From contig JAFRZC010000056.1 in the NCBI GenBank assembly GCA_017442765.1, forward strand, positions 1 through 19,030: 19,030 nucleotides of DNA, read 5' to 3'. This document shows positions 1,593 through 17,718 of this stretch, piece by piece. The notes below the pieces were generated by a model. That model was not told the origin of the DNA. It searched no databases and saw only the letters and a list, made by a program, of their open reading frames with translations. Within the stretch, counting starts at the first letter, position 1. The number at the start of each line of letters is the position of its first letter. The DNA comes from Prevotella sp. (GTDB lineage Bacteria > Bacteroidota > Bacteroidia > Bacteroidales > Bacteroidaceae). Position numbers and translations under genes: made by a program.

Positions 1593-4127
1593 ATGACTAA
1601 TCAGTTTTCACAGAATATATCTGAGATATTAGCTTTCAGCAGAGAAGAGGCCGCGCGCCTCTATTGTCCGTCAATAGGCCCCGAGCACCTGCTGCTCGGG
1701 ATGATGCGCAAGAAAGAAAACCCCATTCATCAGCTCTTCGCCGAGATGGATATCAGCCCCAAAAGTGTCAAGGAGGAGCTGGAGGGGCGGCTCAGTCCGT
1801 CACCTGCCATATCAAGAGACGGGGCATCTATCCAATTAAACGAGCAAGCCAGTAATATACTGAAGCTCGCCGTTCTTGAAGCTCGTATGCAACATACCCA
1901 GCTCGTAGAGGCTGAGCACCTGTTGCTTGCCATGCTCCACGACCAGACAATGAACAAAGCAAAAGAAATACTTGAGGAAAAAGGCATGACCTACGAGAAC
2001 ACGGAAAAACTGCTAGTCCGTCATACCAACACCACCGTAGACGGCATTGGACTGCCCGACGAGGACGAAGAAGAGTTTGACACACCTCAGGCAAAAGACA
2101 GCGGTACTCAGACTGCCACGTCGCGAAAACCACAGACAAAGTCAAAGACTCCTGTCCTTGACAATTTCTCCGCCGACCTCACACAAGCGGCTCGCGACGG
2201 CAAGCTCGATCCGGTAGTCGGTCGCGAGAGAGAAATGCAGCGTGTTGTTGAGGTGCTCTGCCGCAGAAAGAAGAACAACCCCATCCTCATAGGAGAGCCG
2301 GGTGTGGGAAAGAGTGCCATTGTCGAAGGACTCGCGCAGATGATCACCAAGCGCCATACCTCCCCCGTTCTCTTCAACAAGCGGCTCGTCAGCCTCGACA
2401 TGACAAGTATCGTCGCCGGTACCAAATATCGCGGACAATTCGAGGAGCGCATCAAGGCTCTGCTCAAGGAGCTTGAGGAGAATCCCGACATCATCGTTTT
2501 TATCGATGAGATACACACCATGATTGGAGCCGGCGACGCGGCAGGGAGCATGGATGCCGCCAACATTATGAAGCCCGCGCTTGCACGTGGAACGATACAG
2601 TGCATTGGTGCTACCACGCTCGACGAGTATCGCAACTCCATAGAGAAAGACGGTGCCCTCGAACGGCGCTTCCAGAAAATTATCGTCGAGCCCACCACCG
2701 CCGAGCAAACCCTCGTCATACTCCATAACATCAAAGATCGATACGAGCGGCACCACCATGTTAGCTACACAGAAGAAGCGCTTAACGCATGTGTCAGGCT
2801 GACAGACCGCTATGTCAGCGACCGCTTTTTCCCCGACAAGGCCATCGACGCGCTTGACGAAGTGGGTTCCCGCGTACATCTCCAGCATGCAGAGATTCCT
2901 CCTGTAATCATTGACAAAGAGAAAGAGATTGAGGACATCAAAGCCAAGAAAAACCAGGCCGTCAAGGCACAAGACTACGAGCTTGCCGCCAGCTGCCGCG
3001 ACCGGCAGGCCTCTCTCGAGGGCGAGCTCAAGAAACTGCAACAACAATGGACCGATGGCGACAGCCAACAGCGCCAGACTGTCACGGAGGAAGAGGTTGC
3101 CGACGTGGTGTCGATGATGACTGGTGTTCCCGTGCAACGCATGGCTGAGGCCGAAGGCATACGCCTCAAAGGCATGGCGGCTGAGCTCAAAAAAGCCGTC
3201 ATTGCACAAGACCCCGCCATTGAGAAAATGGTGAAAGCCATACAGCGCAACCGTGTAGGCCTGCGCGAGCCCAACCACCCCATCGGCGTGTTCATGTTCC
3301 TCGGACCGACAGGCGTAGGCAAGACTTATCTCGCCAAAAAACTCGCAGAGTTTATGTTCGGCTCCGCCGACTCGCTTATCCGCATCGACATGAGTGAATA
3401 CACCGAGGCCTTCAACACCTCGCGTCTCATCGGTGCACCTCCGGGATATGTAGGATACGAAGAGGGCGGACAACTCACTGAACGTGTGCGGCGCAAGCCT
3501 TACTCCATCGTGCTGCTCGACGAGATAGAGAAGGCTCATCCCAATGTTTTCAATATGCTGCTGCAAGTGCTCGACGAAGGACGCCTCACCGACGGCAACG
3601 GCCGACTCGTCGATTTCCGCAACACCGTCATCATCATGACCTCCAACGCAGGCACACGCCAGCTCAAAGAGTTCAGCCATGGCGTAGGCTTCACAGCCGG
3701 CACACTTGGACACAACATGGACGACCACGACCGCCAGTATGCCCGCAGCATCATAGAGAAAAGTCTCTCGCGACAGTTCGCCCCAGAGTTTCTCAACCGT
3801 CTTGACGAGATTATCACCTTCGACCAACTCAATCTCGAAGCCATCAGGCAGATTGTGGATATCGAGCTTCAGGCATTGTTCAAGCGGTTCCAAGACCTTG
3901 GTCACAGCATTGAGGTCAGCGATGAGGCGAAAACACTCCTCGCCCAGAAAGGCTACGACGTGCAATTTGGCGCACGCCCACTCAAACGCGCCCTGCAAAC
4001 CCTTGTGGAAGACCCGCTTTGCGAGATGCTGCTCGAAGGAAATCTTGATCCTGACACCACCATCAGCATCGGGAAAAAGGCCGATGCTGAAGAACTCACC
4101 TTCCAGTCCTCTCGGAAGGAGAACTGA
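1593..4127 (+). CDS. clpC: ClpC, ATP-dependent Clp protease ATP-binding subunit
   Basis: 844 residues, full length for ClpC. It is a hexameric AAA+ unfoldase in the cytosol that feeds proteins to ClpP. Domain order: N-terminal double Clp repeat (about 1-145); acidic/polar linker (150-185); AAA-1 with Walker A GEPGVGKS (234-241), Walker B IVFIDE (301-306) and arginine-finger segment ALERRF (355-360); UVR-type coiled segment (about 441-480); AAA-2 with Walker A GPTGVGKT (571-578) and Walker B IVLLDE (639-644); C-terminal D2-small domain to the end. The UVR-type middle segment, rather than a long ClpB M-domain, separates it from ClpB. A VGF tripeptide (698-700) sits where the ClpP-binding loop lies in ClpC/ClpA, so it should dock ClpP. 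It appears to be a single-gene unit with its own promoter and a hairpin repeat downstream. No ctsR/mcsAB-type partners are nearby. Confidence 0.97.
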   Translation: MTNQFSQNISEILAFSREEAARLYCPSIGPEHLLLGMMRKKENPIHQLFAEMDISPKSVKEELEGRLSPSPAISRDGASIQLNEQASNILKLAVLEARMQHTQLVEAEHLLLAMLHDQTMNKAKEILEEKGMTYENTEKLLVRHTNTTVDGIGLPDEDEEEFDTPQAKDSGTQTATSRKPQTKSKTPVLDNFSADLTQAARDGKLDPVVGREREMQRVVEVLCRRKKNNPILIGEPGVGKSAIVEGLAQMITKRHTSPVLFNKRLVSLDMTSIVAGTKYRGQFEERIKALLKELEENPDIIVFIDEIHTMIGAGDAAGSMDAANIMKPALARGTIQCIGATTLDEYRNSIEKDGALERRFQKIIVEPTTAEQTLVILHNIKDRYERHHHVSYTEEALNACVRLTDRYVSDRFFPDKAIDALDEVGSRVHLQHAEIPPVIIDKEKEIEDIKAKKNQAVKAQDYELAASCRDRQASLEGELKKLQQQWTDGDSQQRQTVTEEEVADVVSMMTGVPVQRMAEAEGIRLKGMAAELKKAVIAQDPAIEKMVKAIQRNRVGLREPNHPIGVFMFLGPTGVGKTYLAKKLAEFMFGSADSLIRIDMSEYTEAFNTSRLIGAPPGYVGYEEGGQLTERVRRKPYSIVLLDEIEKAHPNVFNMLLQVLDEGRLTDGNGRLVDFRNTVIIMTSNAGTRQLKEFSHGVGFTAGTLGHNMDDHDRQYARSIIEKSLSRQFAPEFLNRLDEIITFDQLNLEAIRQIVDIELQALFKRFQDLGHSIEVSDEAKTLLAQKGYDVQFGARPLKRALQTLVEDPLCEMLLEGNLDPDTTISIGKKADAEELTFQSSRKEN

Positions 4128-4205: not shown

Positions 4206-4264
4206 AAAAATCACAAGAATTTCTTCCGAATGACCATCTTTCGCATGAAATTCTCGTGATTTTT
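4206..4264. repeat. Hairpin repeat element A, likely bidirectional terminator
   Basis: Two 18-nt arms (4206-4223 and 4247-4264) are inverted copies with one mismatch and flank a 23-nt centre. The centre itself carries CGAA...TTCG and could form a nested stem. Both outer ends finish in T-runs when read outward (TTTTT on the plus strand, TTTTTT on the minus strand). That suits a bidirectional terminator between the converging clpC and lipoprotein genes. The minus strand of the centre contains TGCGAAAGA, shared with the element at 11769-11831, so this is one member of a repeat family. Terminator function is inference. Confidence 0.75.
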
Positions 4265-4366: not shown

Positions 4367-4774
4367 TCAGAGTCCCAAATCTTTCAGTTCGATTCCCTCT
4401 TCTTTAAGTTTCAACAGTTCTTCAAGTATGCCATTCACCTCATTGCCAAGGCCAAGGATGCCGTTCAGCACACCATCCTTTGCTCCCTCTACCATGTAGC
4501 GCAGACAACGGCCCTCCAGCTGTCCGATGCGTTTGCGCTCCTCTGGAGTGTAATGGTGCTTAGCTATCTGCTTGCGCAGTTCCACGAATTGAGTGGCAGC
4601 CTGCTTCCATTCTGTCAGGGTATATGTCGGACTATCATCGCGCAGTTCCATAGAGAAACGCTCCAGCCGGTTCACGGCACTCTGCTTAGTGGCACATGAG
4701 ATAAACAGCAAGCAGACGAGCAAGCCTGCCATGATTCCTCTCAGGGAAGAAATACCTAATATTATTGCTTTCAT
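4367..4774 (-). CDS. Small lipoprotein, function unknown
   Basis: 135 residues from the ATG at 4774. I chose this start because it begins a clean lipoprotein signal (MKAIILGISSLRGIMAGLLV..LLFISC, Cys27 as the lipidated residue) and because a perfect -7 box lies 4 nt upstream. The longer open frame upstream runs through the divergent promoter and is not coding. The mature part is mostly helical and charged (SAVNRLERFSMELRDD, EWKQAATQFVELRKQIAKHH, TPEERKRIGQLEGRC), with a glycine-containing stretch (GVLNGILGLGNEVNGILEEL) near the C-terminus. This recalls small Bacteroidales lipoproteins of unknown role. It is anchored in the inner or outer membrane; the sequence does not settle which. It is divergent from the LacI regulator, which could control it. 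Confidence 0.75.
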   Translation of the reverse strand: MKAIILGISSLRGIMAGLLVCLLFISCATKQSAVNRLERFSMELRDDSPTYTLTEWKQAATQFVELRKQIAKHHYTPEERKRIGQLEGRCLRYMVEGAKDGVLNGILGLGNEVNGILEELLKLKEEGIELKDLGL

Positions 4775-10621: not shown

Positions 10622-11737
10622 ATGAATAGGTGTGTCGGGCTCATCTTTTGGTTGCTATGGCTGACAGCCTGTGCCTTTGCACATCCCTCGACGGAACTGT
10701 GCCATTCAGGAGCTTGCGACACCATTGGCAACGAGACATCCACGCTTCAGAAAAATGTCGATGCCGCCTATAAAGTGGTGAAGTCGCTCAACCATATCGA
10801 TACCCTCTACATAGAACCGCAGCATTTCAACTACACGGTGATGCTGCAGAACACCAACACTTACGAAGTCTATCGTCTGAACGACAACGAAGGACACAGC
10901 ATCACTTTTGCTCCGCGCCCGTCTGTCAAGATTGGCCCTTACTTCGGATGGCGATGGCTCTTCCTTGGCTATACCATCGACGTGAGCCATCTGGGCGACA
11001 GCAAGACAAAAGAAGAGTACGACCTCAGCCTCTACAGCTCAAAAATCGGCATAGACCTTTTCTACAGAAAGAGCGGCAACGACTATCTCATCCGGGAGAT
11101 GGATCTCGGAAAAGACATCAACACCTCCGCCATCAAGAATGCCCACTACGATGGTCTCAATGCCAGCATCAAAGGCTTCAATGTCTATTATATTTTCAAT
11201 CACCGCCGGTTTTCCTATCCCGCCGCTTTTAGCCAGAGTACCGTGCAGCGCATCAGCTGCGGCTCACCGCTTGTCGGCATCGGCTACACTCGTCATTCAC
11301 TTAGCGTTGACTGGAACAAGCTCGGCCAAGTAGTTGAGCAACGGTTAGGAACCGATGTTGCCGAAGAGCGTATCAACAAATCTTTGATGTTCGAAAAGAT
11401 ACAATACACCGACGTGTCCGTATCGGGCGGCTATGCCTACAACTGGGTGTTCGCACGCAACTGGCTGTTCGCCTCCTCGCTATCCCTTGCACTGGCCTAT
11501 AAGCGCACCAAGGGCGATTCGCGCTACGACCATTTCACCCTGCGCAACTTCACCATAAAAAACTTCAACCTCGATGGTGTGGGCCGCTTCGGCATTGTAT
11601 GGAACAACACGCGATGGTATGCGGGAACAAGTGCCATCATGCATGCCTACAACTACAATAAGAAAGAGTTTTCCACCAACAACATCTTCGGTAGCATAAA
11701 CATCTATGTAGGCTTTAATTTCATGAGACGACGCTGA
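10622..11737 (+). CDS. DUF4421-type exported protein, probably outer-membrane
   Basis: 371 residues. The signal peptide is hydrophobic up to CAFA (about residue 20), and cleavage before HPS is likely. LTAC (Cys17) could be read as a lipobox, but a barrel-like protein favours signal peptidase I. The mature part resembles DUF4421: DTLYIEPQHFNYTVMLQNTN followed by repeated amphipathic strands rich in aromatic residues (SVKIGPYFGWRWLFLGYTID, LYSSKIGIDLFYRKSGNDY, VSGGYAYNWVFARNWLFASS, LDGVGRFGIVWNNTRWYAG, GSINIYVGFNF). It ends in an aromatic F-M-R-R-R tail after a strand. That pattern is consistent with an outer-membrane beta-barrel. The role is unknown. It is last in its operon and faces the polysaccharide operon across a gap holding element B. 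Confidence 0.82.
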   Translation: MNRCVGLIFWLLWLTACAFAHPSTELCHSGACDTIGNETSTLQKNVDAAYKVVKSLNHIDTLYIEPQHFNYTVMLQNTNTYEVYRLNDNEGHSITFAPRPSVKIGPYFGWRWLFLGYTIDVSHLGDSKTKEEYDLSLYSSKIGIDLFYRKSGNDYLIREMDLGKDINTSAIKNAHYDGLNASIKGFNVYYIFNHRRFSYPAAFSQSTVQRISCGSPLVGIGYTRHSLSVDWNKLGQVVEQRLGTDVAEERINKSLMFEKIQYTDVSVSGGYAYNWVFARNWLFASSLSLALAYKRTKGDSRYDHFTLRNFTIKNFNLDGVGRFGIVWNNTRWYAGTSAIMHAYNYNKKEFSTNNIFGSINIYVGFNFMRRR

Positions 11738-11768: not shown

Positions 11769-11831
11769 AAAATTCCCTAGGGAATTTTCTGCGAAAGACC
11801 ACCTTTCAACAAAAATTCCCTAGGGAATTTT
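11769..11831. repeat. Double palindrome repeat element B
   Basis: AAAATTCCCTAGGGAATTTT occurs twice (11769-11788 and 11812-11831). Each copy is a perfect 20-bp palindrome, and 23 nt separate them. The spacer contains TGCGAAAGA (11790-11798) and GAAAG...CTTTC, which could form an inner stem. Each palindrome can fold into an 8-bp stem with a CTAG loop ending in TTTT, or the two can pair with each other. It lies between converging operons and shares architecture and core with the element at 4206-4264. A termination role is inferred. Confidence 0.8.
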
Positions 11832-11899: not shown

Positions 11900-13813
11900 T
11901 CAACCCTCTTTATCCAACTGTGTGTAAACGGAATTTTTCGAGATAAATTCCGGCACAATTTCCTTCATCTTCGCCACGATAGCCATGTCGTCAAATGTCT
12001 GAGCTGTGGCTATCAGTTCGTATATCTGCTGACTCACCTCGCCATATTCATATTCACGCACCTTGGCAATGCGGATTTTCTCGTGGAAGCTTGGCAGTGT
12101 GTCCTCCTCATTTGAGAGCATCTCCTCATACAATTTCTCTCCGGCACGAAGGCCCGTGTACTTGATTTCCACATCCTTCGCACCCGATAGTTTTATCATG
12201 CGCTTGGCCAGATCGGCAATTTTCACAGGCTTGCCCATGTCGAAGACAAATATCTCTCCACCATTGCCATGCGTCCCGGCCTCCAACACAAGCTTACAGG
12301 CCTCGGGAATCAACATAAAGTAGCGGATGATATTCGGGTCGGTCACCGTCACCGGCCCGCCCTCTTTGATTTGCTGCTCAAACAACGGTATCACAGAGCC
12401 ATTCGAGCCTAACACATTGCCGAAACGGGTTGTCACAAACTGGCACGACTTCTCCGGCAGGCTGTTGTTCAACGCCTGCACATAAATCTCACAGATGCGC
12501 TTCGAGCACCCCATCACGTTTGTCGGGTTCACCGCCTTGTCAGTTGAGATCATCACGAACTTCTTTACCCCATACTTCACGCTCAGGTCAGCCACCACCT
12601 TCGTGCCATAGACATTGTTCTGAATACTCTCGCTCGGATTATCCTCCATCATCGGCACATGCTTATACGCCGCCGCATGGAACACATAGTCAGGTCGGTA
12701 GGTTTTGAAGATACGCTCCATGCGCTCTGCGTTAGCTATCGAGGCCATCAGCGTGTGCGACTTAATCTGCGGATAGTCGTGGGCCAGTTCCAAGCGCAAG
12801 TCATGCTGCGGCGTTTCTGCCTGATCAACAAGAATCAACTCTGCCGGCTCATACTTCGCAATCTGCCGAACCATCTCCGAGCCTATCGACCCCGCAGAAC
12901 CGGTAATCAGAATCTTCTTGCCCGTCAACAGCTCACCAATAGCTTTCATATCCACCTGTATCTCGTTGCGGGGCAACAAGTCCTCCACATTAACCTCCTT
13001 CAAGGCATGGCTTCCGAACGTCTGACCTGGTATCCACTTCTCTGGCGACTGCATCATATAGATACGCACCCCAGCGGAAATCAACCAGTCTTGCAACACT
13101 TCATCACTACGAAATGCCTCATTCTGCATCGGAGAAACGAGAACCGCCTGAATATGCAAGTCTTTCAGTACAGAGACAATAGACTCATCGCCCTCATAGA
13201 CACGCGTTCCCATGAGGATTCGCCCTGCATATCCGACCTCATTTGCAATAAATCCTTTTAATTGGAAACGCGATGGCTTCTCATTCCTAAGGCTCTTCGC
13301 CAAACCGATACCACCGTCTTTCACACCATATATCATTGCACGCATACCCTTGTCAGAGCTGAACGCCACATCGTAAAGCGACTTCACCAACACACGGATT
13401 CCCCACATCGCAACCGTCGAAACGATATATATCGACAAGATATGCCGCGTACCCAGTGGCACAAACAACGGTTTGAACACTTGAGGATAGCTCAATATCG
13501 GATAATGCAGCAACACGACCACGCCACATGCCGCAGCCATCGCATACCCCACACGCTGCAAATCGACAAACGACGAGTAGCGGATGATGCCCGAATACGT
13601 CCTGAACAAGCGGAACATTACGACGTTTACGACGATATAAAGCCCCAACGTCCTGCTGACAGGAACAATATTGGCCAATGTCTGACTGCCTCTGAAGAAC
13701 AGCCAGAACACCAACAATCCCGAAAGAAAGCAAATCAGGCAATCCAATATCAGGATACACCAATAAGGAAGTGCATTCTTCGAAAAATACCAATTTAGAA
13801 TTTTATCAATCAT
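11900..13813 (-). CDS. Membrane-bound UDP-sugar 4,6-dehydratase, PglF/CapD/WbpM-like
   Basis: 637 residues, the size of the long membrane-bound 4,6-dehydratases. N-terminal hydrophobic segments (about 17-40, 55-70, 88-105, 125-143) anchor it. They are followed by a first nucleotide-binding-like domain (about 155-260) and the catalytic SDR domain: GSAGSIGSE (305-313) for NAD, HAAAYKHVPMMEDNP (379-393), and STDKAVNPTNVMGCSKR (423-439). In this family the SDR Tyr of YxxxK is Met, giving MGCSK (Met434, Lys438), exactly as seen. The reaction converts UDP-GlcNAc to the 4-keto-6-deoxy sugar. With the PLP aminotransferase and acetyltransferase upstream in the operon it fits step one of diacetylbacillosamine-type synthesis. 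CapD-like use in another capsule sugar is possible. It is last in the operon, 38 nt after the preceding gene. Confidence 0.9.
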   Translation of the reverse strand: MIDKILNWYFSKNALPYWCILILDCLICFLSGLLVFWLFFRGSQTLANIVPVSRTLGLYIVVNVVMFRLFRTYSGIIRYSSFVDLQRVGYAMAAACGVVVLLHYPILSYPQVFKPLFVPLGTRHILSIYIVSTVAMWGIRVLVKSLYDVAFSSDKGMRAMIYGVKDGGIGLAKSLRNEKPSRFQLKGFIANEVGYAGRILMGTRVYEGDESIVSVLKDLHIQAVLVSPMQNEAFRSDEVLQDWLISAGVRIYMMQSPEKWIPGQTFGSHALKEVNVEDLLPRNEIQVDMKAIGELLTGKKILITGSAGSIGSEMVRQIAKYEPAELILVDQAETPQHDLRLELAHDYPQIKSHTLMASIANAERMERIFKTYRPDYVFHAAAYKHVPMMEDNPSESIQNNVYGTKVVADLSVKYGVKKFVMISTDKAVNPTNVMGCSKRICEIYVQALNNSLPEKSCQFVTTRFGNVLGSNGSVIPLFEQQIKEGGPVTVTDPNIIRYFMLIPEACKLVLEAGTHGNGGEIFVFDMGKPVKIADLAKRMIKLSGAKDVEIKYTGLRAGEKLYEEMLSNEEDTLPSFHEKIRIAKVREYEYGEVSQQIYELIATAQTFDDMAIVAKMKEIVPEFISKNSVYTQLDKEG

Positions 13814-17554: not shown

Positions 17555-17569
17555 TTGTTATTATTTTAT

Positions 17570-17718
17570 CTCACACAGATTTCACAGAACACACAGATAG
17601 TATATGTAAATCCGTGACATCAGTGGTATCCGTGTAACCTTTTCTATTCTCACACAGATTTCACATAACTCACAGATATTATTTTATAATCCGTGGCATC
17701 AGTGTTATCTGTGACCTT
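17570..17718. repeat. Two tandem copies of a CACAGAT/ATCYGTG repeat
   Basis: Copies at 17570-17641 and 17649-17718 match at about 60 of 70 positions plus a 2-nt gap. Each has CACAGAT-type words on the left and ATCCGTG or ATCTGTG on the right, so each can fold back on itself. They fill most of the gap between the GT4 gene and the PglC-like gene, the only sizeable gap inside the operon. This style of repeat is common and dispersed in Bacteroidetes. Confidence 0.85.

Follow-up and report, generated by a model that had tools for sequence, protein, structure and literature searches.

Two intergenic elements in a contig of Prevotella sp., each lying between genes that converge on it, raise the question of whether such repeats end transcription from both sides, travel through genomes as mobile hairpins or serve as binding sites for a protein. 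The window, i.e., the whole 19,030-nt stretch of DNA that was analysed, carries element A at positions 4206-4264 on the minus strand and element B at positions 11769-11831 on the plus strand; both were found where the first-pass annotation had placed them, and its observation of the pair is confirmed. Element A (59 nt) is a diverged copy of a 65-nt hairpin family with arms 3 nt shorter. Its arm at 4206-4223 pairs with the other arm at 4247-4264, the centre dinucleotides AC and GT being complementary between the two, and the inner stem CGAA/TTCG occupies positions 4227-4243, with the TGCGAAAGA half-site at 4237-4245 on the minus strand. Element B is a full P1-P2-P1 copy composed of a 5' arm formed by the P1 palindrome AAAATTCCCTAGGGAATTTT (11769-11788), an inner hairpin formed by the P2 palindrome GAAAG-N5-CTTTC (11793-11807, with the TGCGAAAGA core at 11790-11798) and a 3' arm (11812-11831), which is again a P1 palindrome, 43 bp from the first. 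The core TGCGAAAGA, one half of the P2 palindrome, is identical in A and B, and on recounting the centres agree at 14 of 23 positions. Exact matches to GAATTTNNTGCGAAAGA in the window are limited to these two elements, while six matches with up to three mismatches were counted vs 0.80 expected, a number reached in none of 200 shuffles.

The convergent location described earlier holds for both elements after checking of the neighbouring genes. Element A is flanked by clpB (1593-4127, plus strand), ending 78 nt away, and by a short minus-strand ORF identified with our own gene caller (4367-4732), 102 nt away. Element B lies 31 nt past a DUF4421 gene (10622-11737, plus strand), with a Polysacc_synt_2 gene (11900-13813, minus strand) 68 nt away on its other side. 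When folded on the core strand, each element is predicted to form one long hairpin (-25.5 kcal/mol for A and -31.5 kcal/mol for B), far better than shuffled sequences (z of -6.8 and -8.5, respectively), and the inner stems proposed for the two centres, CGAA/TTCG in A and GAAAG/CTTTC in B, were both recovered in these predictions. At the gathering score, Rfam has no matches in the window and none in 12 loci.

Genome contigs were scanned for the pattern AATTTNNTGCGAAAGA-N11-16-AAATT, which gave 75 stretches, six of them with long complementary arms as judged by eye: five in the uncultured Prevotella sp. Red_deer_4_mag_92 (G001) and one in Prevotellaceae bacterium RUG12198 (G002). Among 299 genomes of the genus, G002 is the nearest to the window according to the DUF4421 protein (84% identity, the next being 65%); G001 has no match to this protein at the same cut-off. 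A covariance model seeded with the six stretches plus A and B was then used for the genome-wide scan of relatives that had been proposed, and further copies do exist. With 150 of approximately 950 candidates scored per genome, at least 27 distinct matches at E<=0.1 were obtained in G001 and at least 18 in G002. Copies of the P1-P2-P1 plan number at least 23 in G001 and at least 10 in G002, so that the suggested dispersed repeat family is borne out; the 12 remaining matches, which are weaker or follow another plan, were excluded (seven of them are L159-L162 and L173-L175). The plan consists of a P1 palindrome (AAATTCYCNNGRGAATTT and variants), a P2 palindrome (GAAAG-N5-CTTTC and variants) and another P1 palindrome. 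A typical copy of 65 nt has the layout 21+3+7+3+7+3+21, corresponding to 21-bp outer arms, a 7-bp inner stem and a 3-nt loop. No printed description of this family was found in the open literature searched, and among the matches listed for the exact TGCGAAAGA string in papers no title concerns such a repeat.

Across the genus, the model reached E<=0.001 in 30 of 150 genomes, and beyond G001 and G002 most of the matches listed measure 87-88 nt and differ in their centre. We examined 25 such longer-match loci in other Prevotella (23 of 87-88 nt and two of 65 nt), which share a P1-like palindrome, mostly AAATTCTCTAGAGAATTT. They were not counted as family members because they are without the P2 centre, lie in the middle of gaps and show no gene-end bias, with 12 loci in tandem, nine in divergent and three in convergent gaps and one unassigned. 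By eye, several of the 87-nt forms (L110, L112, L121, L123, L128, L130 and L131) seem to belong to a longer shared, roughly palindromic element of ~190 bp. Viral contigs were rejected as carriers: 11 stretches fit the search pattern, and none has long complementary arms as judged by eye.

The pairing of the long hairpin was analysed in an alignment of 34 of 35 copies (A3), from which L155 was omitted owing to a 30-nt insertion. In total, 88.1% of cells are paired, vs 82.1% in shuffled alignments and at most 64% after a one-column shift of the partners. Changes on both sides affect 69 cells vs 33.5 in shuffles, and the covariation score equals 0.253 vs 0.146; none of 500 shuffles reached any of these three values. 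Two weaker measures, doubly changed pairs and pair types, were reached by six and five of 500 shuffles, respectively, all shuffles being of a kind that ignores relatedness. The outer arms have 89.7% of cells paired and changes on both sides in 12 of 21 pairs, compared with 83.5% and three of seven pairs for the inner stem. The earlier proposal that structure rather than sequence is conserved thus stands in part: pairing is kept through both-side changes, but it is mainly the outer arms that covary, and the compensatory changes foreseen for the inner stem are present in weaker form.

Since the arms are themselves near-palindromes, folding of each arm on itself was considered as an alternative. 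As the main fold it was rejected, with a score of 0.174 vs 0.253 and doubly changed pairs reached by 227 of 500 shuffles. An arm agrees with its own partner, read as the reverse complement, at 0.911, with itself as a palindrome at 0.844 and with the partners of other copies at 0.784, and none of 5000 permutations gave an arm-to-own-partner match as good. In addition, 10 of the 13 copies with arm centres other than TA have these centres exactly inverted, and the three exceptions include L172, which seems to be misaligned. Because the match to the own partner exceeds self-symmetry and the centres are inverted, arm-to-arm pairing appears from the alignment to be the feature that was kept. Sequence conservation in A3 nevertheless exceeds the needs of a hairpin, which suggests descent by copying or recognition by a protein; the higher apparent conservation of the inner 5' strand (TGCGAAAGA) is partly due to the first search, which required TGCGAAAGA.

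Copy number and the orientation of flanking genes were tabulated, as had been recommended, for 33 copies, using our own simple hexamer-based gene caller (571 genes called over 754 kb of G001, of which 84% is coding). The copies fall into 14 convergent, 18 tandem and one divergent gap, with 60 convergent, 189 tandem and 74 divergent gaps among the 323 G001 gaps of at least 60 bp taken as background. The expected bias to convergent gaps is therefore present (14/33 vs 60/323, binomial p = 0.0013), together with a deficit in divergent gaps (1/33 vs 74/323, p = 0.0020). The stronger statement that copies sit exactly where transcription units converge does not extend to the family as a whole, in which tandem locations outnumber convergent ones. 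At least one gene 3' end borders the gaps of 32 of 33 copies, compared with 249 of 323 background gaps. The nearest stop codon lies at a median distance of 27 nt, with 19 of 32 copies at 19-47 nt and five of 32 at more than 100 nt. In tandem gaps, 14 of 18 copies are closer to the upstream stop and four to the next start; their orientation is mixed, with 10 along the genes and eight opposite, as expected of a symmetric function.

Several traits of intrinsic terminators accompany this position. A T-run of at least four residues was found at 61 of 70 element ends, the run being part of both the stem base and the search model; at most ends it can be read as a U-tract from either strand. With the element masked, another terminator-like hairpin occurs in only one of 16 convergent gaps with a copy vs 20 of 36 without (80-400 bp; Fisher p = 0.0007). 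Shorter convergent control gaps gave 15/32, 13/26 and 13/25 with a hairpin (p = 0.008, 0.006 and 0.003, respectively). These counts use 34 of 35 gaps, the divergent L167 being omitted. No such stand-in contrast was seen in tandem gaps, where another hairpin is present in three of 18 with a copy vs 22 of 190 without, and the hairpin scan is noisy, as eight of 58 divergent gaps also score. Against a terminator stand the AT-rich base of the stem and the absence of both A and B from the standard scan.

By sequence, the family combines three features expected of an intrinsic terminator, a predicted RNA hairpin conserved by pairing, a 3' T-run and a post-stop position, and we consider it reasonably probable that A and B, as members of the dispersed 65-nt P1-P2-P1 hairpin family, act as bidirectional terminators. 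Of the functions proposed at the outset, this one agrees best with the convergent bias, the scarcity of other hairpins, the T-runs and the gene ends shared between species (see below). Once RNA polymerase has moved beyond the last gene, the long hairpin would form in its wake and the transcript would be released by the U-tract at the base of the stem; as the element is symmetric, it could serve both convergent genes. If so, one repeat family would close part of the gene ends of a Prevotella genome, and a repeat would have become a terminator part that swaps its arm sequence or unit number while the fold is kept. The family would also aid gene-end annotation in rumen Prevotella.

Comparison of the two genomes points to inheritance of many positions. 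A comparable G001 gap exists for eight of the 10 G002 copies (all except L167 and L172), and in seven of the eight a G001 copy occurs at the same gene end; this comparison and the reverse one below cover 10 of 23 G001 copies, and the seven positive pairs were found among sequences retrieved for carrying the element. Identity of the flanking DNA is 72-84% for six pairs and 93-97% for the seventh. In two pairs (L137/L166 and L147/L170), arm sequences differ between the species with pairing retained in both. In the eighth case, G002 copy L169, the G001 gap contains a plain perfect hairpin instead. In G002, B has a diverged counterpart, L172, where the orthologous Polysacc_synt_2 gene ends; the other neighbour differs from that of B, and the G002 DUF4421 gene is found on another contig. 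Downstream of clpB, G002 has a different reading frame on the same strand, and the model gave no match there at E<=1.

Some copies are not retained. Three G001 copies traced into G002 correspond to one gap with a single P1 and two places without the element, one of which lacks left-flank similarity. The G002 gap that corresponds to L136 was noted by reading to contain, near the same stop codon, a GC-rich hairpin followed by a T-run. The single-P1 case (L145/L347) amounts to a difference of exactly 43 bp (P2 + P1) between stretches that are otherwise almost the same, as would fit recombination between P1 blocks. We infer that the family spread by past copying and is now largely inherited with its genes, and that recombination between near-identical P1 blocks may add or remove the 43-bp unit.

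The P2 palindrome also has a distribution of its own. GAAAG-N5-CTTTC was counted 129 times in G001 and 127 times in G002, vs four and five for the reversed pattern; of 150 genus genomes, only a few others show a clear excess (for example, 44/10 in G122, 39/6 in G080, 38/7 in G055, 35/3 in G006 and 30/4 in G067). In 46 loci, mostly chosen for carrying the element and with R or Y allowed at the site ends, the only P2 spacings below 200 nt are 22 (13 cases), 43 (2), 44 (6) and 65 (1). A blind palindrome scan of 130.5 kb of G001 gaps gave peaks at 11, 22, 44 and 66 bp with 32, 42, 32 and 21 cases, vs 1.6, 3.4, 1.8 and 1.8 in resampled sequence; with other rounding, the same distances gave 36, 35, 23 and 13 vs 2.0, 0.8, 0.8 and 1.2. 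Furthermore, 44 P2 clusters without a nearby P1 occupy long gaps, with a median of 640 bp (79 bp for all gaps). These P2-only clusters occur in every gap type and form mid-gap arrays at a 22-bp pitch, with ATATAT-centred end units in the examples inspected. Gaps with P2 clusters (e.g., G001 C10:76381-77223) are enriched in TGTTAA and TTAACA, with 53 and 60 occurrences in 33.6 kb vs 23 and 19 in 57.6 kb of other G001 gaps of at least 200 bp. GTTAAC itself was found there 20 times, and the GTTAA-to-TTAAC spacings of 7, 19-20 and 29-30 recur in six, seven and 10 cases, respectively.

The same pitch is seen with unrelated palindromes in G078 and G086 (TGACGTCA-centred and AGTTGGCCAACT). Among 11 genus genomes the phase signal is strong in four (G001, G002, G078 and G086), suggestive in three (G012, G139 and G026) and weak or absent in four, and it was seen in none of four genomes of other Bacteroidota genera (Pedobacter, Flavobacterium, Kaistella and Ulvibacter). 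Since G001 and G002 were picked as carriers and the other samples comprise 100-140 kb, this comparison is a survey rather than a census. We tentatively propose, with somewhat less than even confidence, that several Prevotella lineages possess intergenic palindrome arrays at a fixed 22-bp pitch, the blocks of which vary by lineage or locus (GAAAG-N5-CTTTC, AAATTCCCTAGGGAATTT, AATATGACGTCATATT and AGTTGGCCAACT), so that geometry is conserved and sequence is not; some arrays would be 3'-end hairpins and others mid-gap arrays with their own function. This fixed pitch with changing block sequence is the more novel part of the findings. Its sharing by unrelated palindromes in several lineages offers a testable geometry, which needs either a protein reader or a generating process. 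As a separate dispersed family, two G086 gaps (offsets 25689 and 68311) hold three or four TGACGTCA-centred palindromes (AATATGACGTCATATT) at a 22-bp pitch.

The repeated, inverted build of the family could also be that of a REPIN/BIME-type mobile hairpin, copied by a Y1 (RAYT-like) transposase and found at gene ends merely where insertions are tolerated. Such tolerance alone could explain the few divergent-gap copies, and REPINs, which are mobile elements, likewise consist of inverted palindromes separated by a spacer and show compensatory changes, as far as they are described in the available text of PMC3116915; covariation alone therefore cannot decide between a terminator and a mobile hairpin. 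Y1_Tnp genes are present as well, with three matches in G001 and two in G002. However, in the stretches analysed no P1 or P2 match lies within 1 kb of any of these five genes (one side of L177 ends at a contig end), and the seven Y1 genes read with their flanks (three in G001, two in G002 and one each in G006 and G053) are adjoined by other repeats. When 20 Y1 stretches were scanned, P1/P2 matches within 1 kb were found in two only, a loose 17-nt match in L183 and one AAATTCTCTAGAGAATTT in L187, neither of them from G001 or G002. The P2-rich genomes G080 and G122 are absent from the list of 88 genomes in which Y1_Tnp is matched, the GTAG/CGTC tag occurs within 8 nt 5' of the element end, read on each strand, at one of 70 ends only, and most comparable copies occupy one and the same gene end in the two species. 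A RAYT/REP origin was rejected because the Y1 genes read have no P1 or P2 beside them, a REP driven by a RAYT finds no support given the other repeats there, and we regard the mobile hairpin as an unlikely explanation. Gene-end position, the few other hairpins in convergent gaps and the positions common to two species favour a terminator over it.

The element might instead be a DNA site: palindromes about two helical turns apart could be bound by an oligomerising protein (a regulator, a gyrase-like or a nucleoid factor), with pairing as a by-product. The protein-recognised core suggested at the outset may have its place here, as TGCGAAAGA is a half-site of a palindrome recurring every 22 bp. 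The restricted P2 spacings, the 22-bp excess in the blind G001 scan and the P2-only clusters in long gaps of all types are in line with this. Against it, arms pair with their own partner beyond self-symmetry, most non-TA centres are inverted, and the 65-nt form follows gene ends whereas P2-only clusters do not; for A and B we hold a DNA site to be improbable, about to the same degree as the mobile hairpin. The long, near-perfect duplex, mostly soon past stop codons, might alternatively be an mRNA 3' stabiliser or processing site (an RNase III-type substrate) and not itself the terminator, a function that we find very improbable, as T-runs at both ends and the few other hairpins in convergent gaps favour termination. 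Counting against the bidirectional terminator are the tandem gaps without a stand-in effect, the copies far from stop codons or nearer the next start, the two weaker covariation measures, the sequence conservation in excess of the needs of a hairpin and the copies that are not retained.

Among known systems, bidirectional terminators serving convergent genes and evolving by compensatory stem changes are described in the available text of PMC5381666, and the family resembles intrinsic terminators of this kind in its hairpin and T-run soon past stop codons and in its compensatory stems. Unlike these, it is 65 nt long with an AT-rich base and a nested inner hairpin, is built of repeated palindromes and has a sequence common to its many copies in two genomes. 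With REP, BIME and REPIN elements (PMC1525189 and PMC3116915, as far as described there) it shares dispersed intergenic palindromes, inverted pairs that form hairpins, compensatory changes and frequent location in convergent gaps, a preference reported for REPs in the former source. It differs from REP/REPIN-RAYT systems in having neither P1/P2 beside the Y1 genes read nor the GTAG/CGTC tag. Moreover, REPIN doublets are given in the latter source as randomly distributed in extragenic space, in contrast to the gene-end bias and the unit pitch of 21.5-22 bp observed here.

The nearest Bacteroidales repeats found are BrickBuilt and PINSR, insofar as their available descriptions allow comparison. 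BrickBuilt, a MITE of Porphyromonas gingivalis (PMC4596501), is likewise intergenic, with ~22-nt units, gain and loss of units between strains and predicted stem-loops. Its own features are 23-nt direct repeats without a spacer, a leader and tail and terminal inverted repeats; the units of our family differ in sequence, alternate, are palindromic and measure 21.5-22 bp. As to MITEs in general, the arms of our family are inverted, and its one clean indel (L145/L347) consists of a 43-bp unit between P1 blocks. PINSR of Prevotella intermedia (PMC4755523) is similarly a clade-specific intergenic repeat of Prevotella with many positions kept between strains; it is set apart by its description as a 188-bp repeat without terminal inverted repeats, in the available text of which palindromic units go unmentioned.

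Other repeats were noted in passing. Small solo Y1_Tnp genes of ~150 aa (L176-L182, from G001, G002, G006 and G053) are adjoined by repeats, several of them palindromic and, by eye, CCCGAAGGG-, AGCCCAGGGCAACGCCCTG- or GACCGCAACGCGGTC-like. Some of these genes have motifs resembling TnpA-Y1 subclass 1.2, which is tabulated without a flanking structure in the available text of PMC6006769. Upstream of the Y1 gene in L179, a GTAATATATATTATATTAC-like array with a pitch of ~22 nt was seen by eye inside a longer palindrome, and a shorter stretch resembling it lies upstream of the Y1 gene in L177. Within the window, positions 17569-17713 hold two 66-nt copies of a further repeat (TCTCACACAGATTTCACAG...), which are 85% alike, 79 nt apart and located between two minus-strand ORFs.
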